DNA from: Thermocladium modestius JCM 10088
GTDB lineage: Archaea > Thermoproteota > Thermoprotei > Thermoproteales > Thermocladiaceae
Direction: 5' to 3'
DNA: 64,000 nt
NCBI GenBank assembly: GCA_001315925.1
Contig: BBBF01000002.1
Span: 1 to 64,000 of the forward strand
Part shown: piece after piece, positions 1,391 through 37,938 of the stretch
Layout: each line of letters opens with the position of its first letter
Numbering within the stretch: position 1 is the first letter of the stretch
Translations under genes and position numbers: made by a program
Notes under the pieces: model-generated
What the model was told of the DNA's origin: nothing
Database searches by the model: none
Seen by the model: only the letters and a program-made list of their open reading frames with translations

Positions 1391-2272
1391 ATGAATGTAA
1401 GGAGTTTACGTGCGTCTCAGGACAATGGGAATGGATATGATTATTCCACTGCTCCATCTGCTCAGCCAACTTATTATGACAGTAACTACTACGGTAATAA
1501 TTATTATGATCCCTATGCATCCACAATGTATAGCTATAGCCCATATACCGATAGAACGCCCACGGGCATTCAATACCTAGATACATATATATTGCAAGGT
1601 GGATTAAAGAAGGGAGAAGTTTACTTGGTGGCAGGAGAAGCCGGAATGGGTAAGACCATTTTTAGTTTGCAGTTCTTGAAAACGGGCGCCGAGATGGGTG
1701 AGACTGGAATATACATAACAGTGGATGAGCCAAGCGAGGATGTGAAGCGAGGCGTTCAGGATGCATTGGGTTGGAATTTGGAGCCTTATGAGCAGCAGAA
1801 TAAGCTGGTCATGCATGATTTCAGGACGCATTTCAGACTTTATGCTAGCGATGATAAGCTATCCATAGATCCCAAGAATATAGCCAAGATATTGGTGGAG
1901 ACCGTTAGGAAGTACGGCGCGCAGCGAGTGGTGATAGATCCCATTGCTCCATTATTGATAACTAGCCATCAGGATGTGCTTTGGATAAGGGAGTACATGC
2001 GGGAATTGGTATTTAATCTGAAGAAGTTAAAGGACGTCACGACGCTGATAACGTCGGAGATACCAACTGGGGGGGAAACCACTAAGATAAGCAGGTTTGG
2101 AGTGGAGGAGTACTTGGCAAGCGGCGTGATAATAATGCACCTGTATGAGGACGAGAGAACCCATGAGATATACAGAGTCATGTATATAAGGAAGATGAGA
2201 TGGATGAGGGTTCAACCCATAAAATTGGCCTTTGATATATATGAACCATATGGAATCTTAATAAGGGGGTAA
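1391..2272 (+). CDS. KaiC/RadA-like RecA-superfamily ATPase
   Basis: A single-domain KaiC-type ATPase of 293 residues. Residues 1-50 are Tyr/Ser/Asn-rich and probably disordered. The ATPase core starts at about 57 (GIQYLDTYILQGGLKKGE). The P-loop GEAGMGKT is at about 82-89 and the Walker B-like segment QRVVIDPIAPLL at about 178-189. These archaeal proteins are stand-alone homologues of KaiC and RadA that bind ATP. Roles in DNA repair or signalling have been proposed, but no partner here specifies one. The gene is complete; one G7 run (near 2070) adds a glycine in frame. The srp54 gene follows on the same strand. It is not evidence of a circadian clock. Confidence 0.85.
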   Translation: MNVRSLRASQDNGNGYDYSTAPSAQPTYYDSNYYGNNYYDPYASTMYSYSPYTDRTPTGIQYLDTYILQGGLKKGEVYLVAGEAGMGKTIFSLQFLKTGAEMGETGIYITVDEPSEDVKRGVQDALGWNLEPYEQQNKLVMHDFRTHFRLYASDDKLSIDPKNIAKILVETVRKYGAQRVVIDPIAPLLITSHQDVLWIREYMRELVFNLKKLKDVTTLITSEIPTGGETTKISRFGVEEYLASGVIIMHLYEDERTHEIYRVMYIRKMRWMRVQPIKLAFDIYEPYGILIRG

Positions 2273-2339: not shown

Positions 2340-3673
2340 ATGAAGGACTTGACGGATTCGCTTAGCAAGTTAGTCGATAAAATAAGGGGGGGGCAAGTCA
2401 TATAGATGAGGAGACGCTCAAGGAAGTATTGAAGGATTTACAGAGGGCATTGTTGAAAGCCGATGTTGATGTTAAGTTGGTCTATGAGCTCACTAAATCC
2501 ATAGAGGAAGAGTATAGGAAGGAGGAGCCGCCCTCCGGCATATCCAGTAAGGACTATCTGCTTTACTTGATCTATAATAAATTGATATCAATTATGGGAG
2601 GAGAGACCGAGGCCAAGGTGGAGTTAACCAAGCGACCATACGTTATACTGCTGGTGGGCACCGAAGGGAGCGGCAAGACAACGTCTGCTGGAAAGATGGC
2701 CTACTGGTTTTCCAGGAAGGGGTATAGGGTTGGATTAATAGAAACGGATACCGTGAGGCCGGGGGGGGCTCATGATCAATTGAGGCAGTTGGCCGAGAAA
2801 TTGAATATTCCATTTCACGTAGATCCCAACTCCAAGGATGCCGTGGACATAGCCTTGAAGGGCCTTGAGAAGATGAGAAAGGAGAAGGTCGATTTGATAA
2901 TAATAGACACCGCTGGTAGGCATAGAAATGAAGAGGAATTGATGAAGGAGATAAAGGAGATATATAATGCTGTGACGCCCGATGAGGTAGTATTAGTGAT
3001 AGACTCAACAATGGGAAAACAAGCCGCGGCTCAGGCTGAGGCATTTAATAGGAACGTGCCAATAAATTCCATTTTCTTGACCAAGATGGATAGCACGTCG
3101 CGGGGCGGCGGTGCATTGGCCTCGGTGGTAAGGACTGGCGCCAAGATAAAATTCGTGGGCAGCGGCGAGTATTTGGAGGATGTAGAGCTATTCAATGCGA
3201 AGAAATTCGTCCAAAGGCTGCTCGGCATGGGTAACCTAGAGGAATTAATGGAGAGAATGAAGTCCATTGAGGAAGAGGACCAGGTATTGATGGAGTTAAG
3301 CGAAGGCAAATTCAATATGCTCACATTCATGAAACAACTGGAATCCATGACCAAACTAGGGCCATTAAGCAAGCTCTTGCAGATGCTTCCCATGACCATG
3401 CTGCCGGCTCCCATGAGAAGCCTTAATGACGATCAATTGGAGGATGCGCAAATTAGGATGAGGCGTTGGCTGGCGGTGATGCGATCCATGACTAGAGAGG
3501 AATTGATGGATCCAAGCGTGCTCGATGCATCCAGGATAAAGAGGATAGCCCTGGGCTCGGGAACCACTCCGAAGGACGTGCGTGAACTGATTCGGCAATA
3601 TGAATTGATGAAAAAGATGGTGGGCGAATTAAAGAGAAGCCAGAGACGCTTAGGCAGATTCATAAAGCAGTAA
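2340..3673 (+). CDS. srp54: Signal recognition particle 54 kDa protein (frameshifted near N-terminus)
   Basis: GTPase of the signal recognition particle. It binds signal peptides and 7S RNA and docks with FtsY. The four-helix N domain starts at ATG 2340 (MKDLTDSLSKLVDKIRG). A G8 run at 2386-2393 then throws the frame; a G6 or G9 run would continue it into HIDEETLKEVLKDLQ. The G domain carries GTEGSGKTT (P-loop), DTVRPGGAHDQL, DTAGRH and TKMD, and the M domain is Met-rich at the C-terminus (LLQMLPMTMLPAPM). Family members usually have RPA(A/G)xDQL, so the Gly-Gly from a second G8 run is a likely in-frame expansion. The total length fits full-length archaeal SRP54. The protein is presumably essential, so the literal frameshift cannot be the normal state. 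Confidence 0.95.
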
Positions 3674-3692: not shown

Positions 3693-4197
3693 ATGCGCGA
3701 GTTCATCTTAATTACATCCACGCAATCAGCATTGCAATACATAGGACTACATTCCAGATTCATTCAAGGAGCCATGATGGTCTCCCATGGTTATAGGCAC
3801 AATGTAAATATCTACCTGGTATTCATGGATAAATCCAGGTATATGTTGATTAAGAGCGATGCAGTGAGAAGGATATTGCCCGATGAATCGAGCATTGCAT
3901 ATTTGATAAAGGATTTTTTATCGGGTGAGGCTAGGAAAGGAATCATAATTGGAGCCACGGAGCTACGTGATATATTAAGGAGGGCCCCCTCAACCCATAT
4001 TGATAATTCCTATGGTACGGGAATGTAATTCCCACGTGAGACTTGACCGGGATTTTACGCTCATCGCTAATTACTACTCCCCCCCGGATTTAGACTCATT
4101 ACTGTGCAGCAAGGGATTTGGGTTAAGCCGCATTTCCCTAGATCAAGCCTCCATAATCGTGAATTACGCGGCAGATAATGGCCTGGAAATACGTTAA
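3693..4197 (+). CDS. trmY: TrmY-like tRNA pseudouridine-54 N1-methyltransferase (frameshifted)
   Basis: A SPOUT-fold methyltransferase of the TrmY (DUF358) family, which converts pseudouridine 54 in the T-loop of archaeal tRNA to N1-methylpseudouridine using SAM. The N-terminal frame starts MREFILITSTQSALQYIGLH, followed by a segment around GYRHNVNIYLVF and ILPDESSIAYLIKDFL, typical of the family. The frame stops after the C5 run at 3985-3989. The next frame supplies the C-terminal part ending in SRISLDQASIIVNYAADNG, matching the family's ISLGP...HCITIVNxxLD region. Deleting one C joins them. The gene follows srp54 with a 19 nt gap, so the two are probably co-transcribed. Confidence 0.75.
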
Positions 4198-4472
4198 TGA
4201 GCCTCCTACTTCGCCGTTCCTTAAGTCACTAATCACCTCTTCGAGACTGGTTATTCCATGAATTGCGCATTATATATGCGGCCGGCAAAGCATTGACCTA
4301 AGATCTATATATCTTCCCCCCCAACGACTGAGTCCCCCCCATACAAGTTCTAAGCATCGTGCAGTAAACGATGATTGCAGAAAGTTAAATTGGTTGAAAA
4401 GGCATTCAAGGCCGGAGGGAACAATAAGGTTTAAAACGATACATGCAGTGCCTCCCCAAGTTGTCGAAGATA
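4198..4472. other. Intergenic stretch
   Basis: No convincing reading frame on either strand. It contains two C7 runs at about 4316 and 4334 and ends with the promoter of the helicase gene (TTTAAAA at 4430-4436). Confidence 0.5.
4430..4436 (+). promoter_or_regulatory. TATA-like box of the XPD-family helicase gene
   Basis: TTTAAAA lies about 40 nt ahead of the preferred ATG at 4473 and only 7 nt ahead of the first in-frame ATG at 4443. This favours the downstream start. Confidence 0.45.
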
Positions 4473-6329
4473 ATGCAATATTTTCCCTATGATTCGGCCA
4501 GGAAGCCACAGGAAAAATTGATAGAATCCATATTGTATGCTTTAGATGAGGGATTAAACGTAGTGGTGGAGGCTCCAACTGGCGTTGGAAAAACCGCTGC
4601 TGCCTTGGCATCAGCTTTCTTATGCGATGGATAGGGACTTAGACGTGATTTACCTGATAAGAACCAAGAACCAGGCCCAGGCGCCTATGAGGGAGCTGTC
4701 CAAATTATTGGAGAGGAAAGGCATAGCTATTCCTTACGTGCTGCTAAGGAATAGAGCGGATATGTGTTGTCTCACCTCTTCAAAGAAACTGGCATATAAG
4801 GATTTCTTAATGGAATGCAATTACCTCAAGTCTCAACATGAATGTCGATATTACGAGGGAACTATGAAGGGAGTACCGGAGTCCTTAATACAGGGAGTAA
4901 AATTGAGCTCACCGTCAAGTTACGTTAGGAGGTTCTGTGCGGCCGGTCTTTGTCCATACGATTCATCGCGTATGCTGTCCAACAAGGCCAGGTTGGTGAT
5001 ATTATCCTATTATTATTTGTTTGCGATGAATAGGCCGGAGACCGTCGATCTTAACCTGGAGAGCTCCATCTTGATCGTGGATGAGGTACATAACCTTCCT
5101 TCATCGATAATCGATTTAAACACGGTTCAATTAACTGAGTATACCATACGTGCATCGATAAATGAGGTAAAGCAGTACTTGACTGATGAAGAGGCCAGGA
5201 TTAAGGCCATGTCATCGCTTAAGACTCTTTTAACTATGTTTAGAAAGTTAAGGGAAAAGATTATGGAGGATGAAGAATCATTCAAGGAGAAACGCATAGA
5301 TGCATCGGATGTCTTGCCGTATTTTGATGGCATAGATACATTAAAGGCGATTCACGCTGATATAATGCAGGGGAAGAGAACCAAGGGGTTGCAATTCTTC
5401 TCATCGCCGTTGACTGAGGTATTGGAGTTCTATTCATTCATAATAACCAAGCTTCAGGGCCGTGGGCTATTCTATAAACCCAGCAAGGAAGGCGATGCGG
5501 TGTTAAGCAAATTGCTGGATCCATCCATAGTGAGCGGCGAGGTATTCAAGAAGGTTAATAAATACATATTGATGAGTGGTTCCCTTCCTCCCGTAGATTA
5601 CATTAAATTGATGCTTGGATTAAGGGATGATTATCGATTGGTGAGGGTTCCCTTGAATGAATATATAAGCATGGATAATATAAGGGCCGTAATATATCCA
5701 GCCGTCACCACTAAGTATGATATGAGGGATGAATCCATGTATTCCAAGATAGCTGAAGCAATAGAGTCTTTGTTCAATTCAACCAAGGCTGGGCTTTTGG
5801 CGGTTTTTCCATCATATGATGTCATGAAGCGCGTTAGAAAATATATTCATTCGCGCAATGTAATAACCGAACTGTCCAGCACATCAATAGATGGCGTCAT
5901 GGATAAGCTGGCCGATGATCCGCATCAATTGATATTGGGGGGGGTGGCTGGCGGCAAGTTAATAGAGGGAATAGAATTTAAGGTAGGCGATAGAAATGCG
6001 GTGGATACCATCGCTATAGTGGGCGTTCCATACCCTGAGCCCAGCGACTTCTTCAAATGATATTGAATGGTTTGAGCGCTAAGATAGGCAATAGGCAATT
6101 GGCGTGGCACATAGTATATACATGGAATGCATTAATTAAGGTAAAGCAATCAATAGGAAGGGGGGGAATCAGGTCGGAGAGGGATAGGGTATACGTCGTT
6201 CTAATGGATGATAGATTCGCCCAGAATAAGGCATTATTTGATGAGTTGAAAAGCTATCTAAGCGACGTTGCGGTAATAGACGAATTGGGAAAATTAATCG
6301 ATGATGCGAAATCATTCAATAAGCATTGA
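4473..6329 (+). CDS. XPD/Rad3-family DNA helicase (two frameshifts)
   Basis: A superfamily 2 5'-3' DNA helicase of the XPD/DinG group, ATP-driven and normally with a 4Fe-4S cluster. It begins MQYFPYDSARKPQEK, as in archaeal XPD. Motif I is EAPTGVGKT. Four cysteines between motifs I and II (CCLTSSK, ECNYLKSQHEC, RRFCAAGLC) fit the iron-sulfur domain. Motif II is VDEVHNL and motif VI is QSIGRGGIRSERDR, in which an in-frame G7 run probably added a glycine. Two breaks are not at long G/C tracts. Near 4617 (GCTTTCTTATG) one base must go to restore SAxxYAMDRDLD, and near 6055 the PYPEPSDFF segment is followed by the last part in another frame. About 610 residues overall, close to full length. It may be a real pseudogene or carry consensus errors. 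Confidence 0.85.
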
Positions 6330-7608: not shown

Positions 7609-8154
7609 ATGGACTTGGATGAGTTGCCCAAAATTGTGGATGCGCTCTGCTTGCTTCCCAGGATAGGCTGGGTCAGCAGGGGAATAATGAATCCAGAAAC
7701 CGTGGGAAGGCACTCCCTTCTGGCCGCATTAATCGCCGCTCAACTCGCAAAATCGTTGGGCTTGGATGTTGGACGGGCCGCATTGCTGGCACTAATACAT
7801 GACGTGGCGGAATATAGATTAGGCGATGTGGTTAGGGATGTGAGGGAAATAGATATGTCGTATTGGCGCAGCATGGAGCAGGGGATAGCGAGGGATCTGG
7901 GATTAGGCGAGGAGTTCGAGGAGTACTCCATGGGCGACAGCAAAGAGGCCAAGGTAGCTGCCATTAGCGATAAATTGGCGACCTTTCTAAGGGCATGCAT
8001 TTATGCAAGGGAGAATGCCTCTATCATTCCCTTGATCAAGCGTTATGCCGAGATGATAAAGCCAATGCTGGGTTCCCTGGGCGGGGAGGCAGCGTTGGAG
8101 ATCGAGGGCGTCATTAGAAAATGCTTATTGAATTATTCTATTCATATGGATTAG
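7609..8154 (+). CDS. HD-domain phosphohydrolase, YfbR/HDDC2 type
   Basis: A 181-residue HD-superfamily metal-dependent phosphohydrolase. The metal-binding residues are seen in VGRHSLLAALIAAQLA (His, about residue 35) and LIHDVAEYRLGDVV (HD, about residues 65-66), with a later Asp in ISDKLATFLRA. This pattern matches the YfbR/HDDC2 group, which dephosphorylates 5'-deoxynucleotides; the exact substrate here is inference. The ATG directly abuts the stop of the ABC ATPase gene, so the two are co-transcribed, though a shared function is not obvious. The gene is intact and has no long G/C tract. Confidence 0.8.
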   Translation: MDLDELPKIVDALCLLPRIGWVSRGIMNPETVGRHSLLAALIAAQLAKSLGLDVGRAALLALIHDVAEYRLGDVVRDVREIDMSYWRSMEQGIARDLGLGEEFEEYSMGDSKEAKVAAISDKLATFLRACIYARENASIIPLIKRYAEMIKPMLGSLGGEAALEIEGVIRKCLLNYSIHMD

Positions 8155-8414
8155 GCAATTTTTAGGCAGGTTCTATTCTAGATTTACCAATATGTTTAAA
8201 GCAAGGGAATAAAAATGCACCCAGTGTTAACCGCATCTATGAAACGATCATCGCGATCTACAGAGGTGAGCGGTTTAGCTTGCCGTGGGTATGGCAAGTT
8301 AACGATGCATGGAGAAAGTAGATTTAGGGGGGCTTGAATTTCTCCCAGTAATTTCGACCGTTATAGGATCGCCGGAGAATCGGAGATAATCGCCTTAATG
8401 GGGGGATGGTTAGT
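8155..8414. other. Intergenic stretch
   Basis: No convincing gene. It contains two G6 runs and A/T-rich patches near 8195-8215 (GTTTAAAG) that could serve as a promoter for the MobA-like gene. Confidence 0.4.
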
Positions 8415-21610: not shown

Positions 21611-21689
21611 AGCCGGGTCGTCTAGTGGTCAAGGATGGTGGGCTTTGGACCCATCGACCCCCCCGGTTCGAATCCGGGCCCGGCTACCA
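21611..21689 (+). tRNA. tRNA-Gln (anticodon UUG), CCA encoded
   Basis: A cloverleaf can be drawn in full. The acceptor stem AGCCGGG pairs with CCCGGCT, giving the A1-U72 pair typical of archaeal tRNA-Gln. The D arm is GTCT...GGAT. The anticodon stem GTGGG/CCCAT carries loop CTTTGGA, anticodon TTG. The T arm is CCCGG-TTCGAAT-CCGGG, then discriminator A and encoded CCA. The C7 run between anticodon and T stems gives a 7-nt variable loop; five Cs would give the usual 5-nt loop. No intron is present. Confidence 0.95.
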
Positions 21690-37859: not shown

Positions 37860-37938
37860 AGCCGGGTCGTCTAGTGGTCAAGGATGGTGGGCTCTGGACC
37901 CATCGACCCCCCCGGTTCGAATCCGGGCCCGGCTACCA
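37860..37938 (+). tRNA. tRNA-Gln (anticodon CUG), CCA encoded
   Basis: Identical to the tRNA-Gln at 21611 except for anticodon base 34 (loop CTCTGGA, anticodon CTG). Acceptor AGCCGGG/CCCGGCT, T arm CCCGG-TTCGAAT-CCGGG, discriminator A and CCA are all present. It has the same C7 run and therefore the same 7-nt variable loop. Confidence 0.95.

Follow-up and report, generated by a model that had tools for sequence, protein, structure and literature searches.

A frame break in srp54 at a G8 tract

Is the srp54 gene of Thermocladium modestius JCM 10088 truly interrupted near its start, or is the interruption an error of the sequence record? In the window analysed here (64,000 nucleotides, positions 1 to 64,000 of contig BBBF01000002.1; features in Table 1), translation from ATG2340 gives MKDLTDSLSKLVDKIRGGQVI up to a stop codon at 2403; in the frame closed at 3673, the reading includes GGASHIDEETLKEVLKDLQ. 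The original prediction that a G8 run puts the N-domain start and the remainder of SRP54 out of frame with each other thus holds for this record, as does its claim that no in-frame start just past the run would give a full N domain: the first usable start is TTG2429, from which the Pfam match to SRP54_N begins only at profile position 27. The resulting 414-aa frame matches SRP54 (E 2.3e-64) and SRP_SPB (9.9e-27), and similar to other SRP54/Ffh signal recognition particle GTPases (PF00448, PF02978, PF02881) the gene has their domain order, with both the GTPase and the signal-peptide-binding domain present; a complete N domain in one frame is prevented in this record by the G8, whereas relatives possess it. 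In Thermocladium sp. UBA166 (L004, apparently genome G012), whose SRP54 is 94-95% identical to the protein here, tract 1 is G6 and srp54 is open over 442 aa from the same ATG. The original prediction had named a clean G6 in all reads as its refutation, and G6 is the length in this relative. The gene is likewise open at 442 aa in G011, and most other family members have no stop within it. We judge that the gene should still be called SRP54, and that its N-domain break is an error of the record.

Table 1. Features of the srp54 locus and of other affected genes in the window.
Feature	Position	Strand	Remarks
KaiC-family ATPase gene, upstream	1391..2272	+	C-terminus shortened at G5 (G4 in UBA166); same type of defect as srp54
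SRP54 N-domain start, ATG2340	2340..2405	+	Read from translation; G8 shifts the frame into a stop at 2403
G8 tract 1	2386..2393	+	G6 in UBA166; net +2, frame broken
Remaining SRP54 frame, 414 aa from TTG	2429..3673	+	Partial N domain, GTPase domain, signal-peptide-binding domain
G8 tract 2	2761..2768	+	G5 in UBA166; net +3, in frame; extra Gly in DTVRPGAHDQL, a GTPase-domain motif
Downstream gene, Pfam putative SAM-dependent RNA methyltransferase	3693..4028	+	111-aa fragment left of 175 codons; match to profile positions 33-94 of 198; reference 3977-4504, broken
tRNA-Gln	21611..21686	+	Three extra Cs; C7 against C4 in G011
Second tRNA-Gln, anticodon ctg	37860..37935	+	Same three extra Cs against G011

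Compared with other SRP54/Ffh genes, run lengths here differ at two G tracts, one giving the frame break and the other an extra Gly in a conserved motif. At the second, DTVRPGAHDQL is turned into DTVRPGGAHDQL, and a single Gly stands at this site in all relatives whose motif was read (L004-L010); the same kind of change therefore also strikes a conserved GTPase motif of srp54. Tract 2 was not listed in the original prediction. The 46 bases ahead of tract 1 are identical to those of UBA166, and substitutions relative to that genome are distributed over codon positions 1/2/3 as 4/1/25 between the tracts and as 10/6/56 past tract 2. By this pattern srp54 has remained under purifying selection until now, in line with an intact gene in the living organism. 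These observations bear on whether srp54 might be a true pseudogene, or the 414-aa protein from TTG2429 a functional short form. The 414-aa frame does retain the GTPase and signal-peptide-binding domains, but no second intact copy of srp54 was found (the remaining matches are pieces of FtsY), and the identity ahead of tract 1, the purifying selection on the rest and the extra Gly placed in a conserved GTPase motif by the same kind of tract make either version most improbable.

Lengthened G and C runs across the record

The window contains 349 G7 matches against 32 in shuffles; the tract is therefore not a chance event, and the excess belongs to the record at large, not to srp54. In 25 contigs (544 kb) of this genome (G000), G/C runs of length 4, 5, 6, 7 and 8 number 1057, 443, 285, 2085 and 634, respectively, and only two are longer than 8 (lengths 10 and 12), whereas A/T runs decay smoothly with length and the G/C run counts of relatives decay monotonically. 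When runs were compared one by one with G012 over an 18.9-kb colinear alignment and about 4 kb of further aligned pieces, 280 of 284 G/C runs of length 3 were unchanged and none was lengthened, 17 of 43 runs of 4 had grown to 7 or 8, and all 61 A/T runs of 4-5 were unchanged. Thus G/C runs of 1-3 and A/T runs are essentially as in the relative, runs of at least 4 are often longer, mostly 7, and length changes are confined to homopolymers in otherwise accurate sequence. About half of the G4 runs are not lengthened, and we found no context rule for which of them lengthen by flanking base, strand or position. We do not claim selection for frame-neutral +3 changes, as the step from 4 to 7 dominates in the 16S rRNA gene as well. 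Among 2,700 terminal bases of contigs, 21 long runs occur where 13.5 would be expected, most of them supplied by a few contig starts, which is suggestive only as a sign of read heterogeneity. The window itself starts with C7-A-C8 (positions 1-16), and the start of contig C14 has a similar sequence with C4 (CCCTACCCCAAAGGACGGAACTTTACATT); copies of one repeat therefore differ in run length inside one assembly.

The consequences for coding genes are broad. Of the 16 genes in the 18.9-kb colinear stretch, 11 that are open in G012 are broken in the window, and the gene for the SRP receptor FtsY is frame-broken too, at a G6 run (AAGCTGGGGGGTTAAGG; L069, G000:C30:5000-8500). With so many genes affected, the suggestion that srp54 is a locus that discriminates well between the possible causes finds no support, and every other G-tract frameshift reported from the window should be weighed with the record-wide lengthening in mind. 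This genome, of 1.92 Mb, has an estimated completeness of 47.6%, and G011, of 1.9 Mb, one of 97%. The NucS/EndoMS homologue encoded in G000 (G000:C3:7878-8218) also appears split over two frames (matches at 7878-7970 and 7916-8218), as an artefact predicts.

Ribosomal and transfer RNA genes

An artefact of the record should be present regardless of gene function, including in rRNA and tRNA, whereas phase variation or a mutator should spare constrained RNA genes. A single 16S rRNA gene was found in this genome (G000:C22:166-1745). It has 23 insertions that no other family member compared shares, 76 nt in total, within or next to runs of G or C, against 0-2 unique inserted columns in each of the family's seven other 16S genes without an intron. 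Insertions (single brackets) occur in the 790 loop (ATTAGATACCCC[CCC]TGTAGTCC), in the 690 region (GGGGTAGGGGCGAAAT), near the 3' end (GTAGGGG[GGG]AACCTGCGG) and at CACCACAA[GGG]GGGGTG, all of them universally conserved places, and AAGGGG[GGG]TG is also among the sites. Given the structure of the ribosome, a 16S rRNA with such insertions could not work. Two tRNA-Gln genes are lengthened by three bases as well (Table 1). RNA genes are beyond rescue by a frame shift, and the run lengths of the record are therefore not those of functional genes. No 23S rRNA gene was found in this record or in G012. Separately, the 16S gene of G001 (L113, G001:C1:129150-130828) exceeds the others in length by about 170 nt and has 177 unique columns; the excess is probably due to an rRNA intron of the sort that Thermoproteales are known to carry.

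The RNA genes also weigh on programmed or tolerated slippage, in which the tract would be long in the DNA and the transcript or ribosome would slip back to yield full SRP54. The downstream srp54 frame is conserved as if translated, which fits such a mechanism, but the insertions in 16S rRNA and tRNA are left unaccounted for, the relatives checked do not conserve a frame-breaking tract at the site (UBA166 has G6 and an open gene, and G011 is open), and the 11 broken colinear genes and FtsY would need the same rescue. We regard slippage at srp54 as scarcely credible.

Affected and unaffected genomes

Of 398 sampled genomes of the phylum, three stand out by their exact-G7 counts, namely this genome (7958), G015 (4803) and G014 (3857), each remaining genome having at most 340. 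The latter two are Vulcanisaeta-like and belong to a neighbouring genus (e.g. L170-L177); their spectra peak at 7 with a shoulder at 8 and nothing beyond, each has a completeness of 67%, and the 16S gene of G015 compared with that of G013 shows the same kind of insertions as ours. The Vulcanisaeta sister genomes G013 and G017 have exact-G7 counts of only 2 and 5. The lengthening thus follows the record and not phylogeny, with three records in two genera affected and their sister genomes normal; the G014 and G015 records probably share the artefact, and all three presumably come from one batch. Were the G7/G8 tracts genuine features of the DNA in three thermophilic archaea, an unknown process would have to restore normal lengths in RNA, including rRNA and tRNA, a proposal to which we give almost no credence.

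There remains the question of whether the expansions are real DNA produced by a mutator lineage, through replication slippage without effective correction, together with population heterogeneity at G tracts. Hyperthermophilic archaea such as Pyrobaculum lack MutS and MutL homologues, and frameshifts in short mononucleotide runs arise in S. acidocaldarius (PMC4471258). Exact-G7 counts are moreover moderately raised, at 38-310 per genome, in some genomes of the same order (G062-G072 and G079-G080; genera g6, of family f3, and g8). However, genomes with natural G tracts show a monotonic spectrum with no peak at 7 or 8, and the two sampled from this set (G064 and G066) fall smoothly with run length; the rise in g6 and g8 is a natural enrichment of G tracts, distinct from the artefact. 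NucS/EndoMS homologues are present in 25 of 25 family members, and the three affected genomes are not set apart in this respect, so that loss of this repair gene, which we had considered as a cause, does not explain them. Furthermore, A/T runs are unmoved, the coding sequence past tract 1 is still under selection, and 16S rRNA and tRNA genes are struck at universally conserved sites. A mutator origin therefore seems very unlikely to us.

Earlier reports and sequencing platform

The usual homopolymer error of 454 and Ion Torrent sequencing is plus or minus one base and affects all four bases. Similar to flow-based drafts of this kind, the errors here are confined to homopolymer runs and are accompanied by broken frames and low apparent completeness; they differ in that lengthening reaches up to 4 bases, is restricted to G/C and peaks at 7-8. 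This bimodal, 4-or-7 and G/C-only pattern is not that of an ordinary Ion Torrent flow-signal error, and we count it against reading the runs as an artefact.

Published G-quadruplex surveys have met the same feature. Up to several hundred GnNiGn motifs (n>7) were reported in three evolutionarily distant archaea, all JCM strains, namely Thermocladium modestius JCM 10088, Methanogenium cariaci JCM 10550 and Thermogymnomonas acidicola JCM 13583, and were set aside from that analysis as having only two G-runs each (PMC8044849). Pairs of G7 or longer separated by 1-2 nucleotides occur here too, 52 times in 544 kb, the first bases of the window being one of them; excluded in that study, they are read here as products of run lengthening. 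In a 2020 survey T. modestius JCM 10088, with a G+C of 53.1%, was one of the archaea in which motif frequencies were highest (PMC7565180); the G+C of our 544-kb sample is 51.9%. Two JCM drafts, Vulcanisaeta souniana BBBK01 (PMC9872577) and Paenibacillus pini (PMC3961731), were made by Ion Torrent PGM. From these reports and drafts we infer that the defect stems from how the JCM draft series was made, with Ion Torrent PGM as the probable platform and a step of the instrument or software as the presumed cause.

Conclusions

Taken together, the defect is one of the record as a whole. It concerns G/C only, with a threshold of 4 and a ceiling of about 8, it extends to rRNA and tRNA, and two further records have it while their sisters do not. 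We are highly confident that the srp54 G8 is one instance of this batch-specific, record-wide G/C-homopolymer artefact and that the srp54 of the organism is ordinary and open. In the mechanism we propose, G or C runs of at least 4 would have been lengthened, mostly to 7 and sometimes to 8, in the sequencing, library preparation or assembly of the draft, and the living organism would carry an open srp54 with G6, or a length equivalent in frame, at tract 1. The original prediction had left sequencing error, population heterogeneity and slippage side by side. We favour the first, because lengthening in 16S rRNA and tRNA is beyond rescue by translational or transcriptional slippage as normally understood, and because it is common to three records whose close relatives lack it; neither slippage, phase variation nor a pseudogene is needed for srp54.

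This draft and at least two like it distort gene calls, completeness scores and G-quadruplex surveys, and a peak at 7 in the histogram of G/C run lengths, or insertions in the 16S gene, would provide a simple screen for such records. They likewise distort any claim of slippage or phase variation in these archaea. For the biology of srp54 itself there is no consequence, the gene being an ordinary one.
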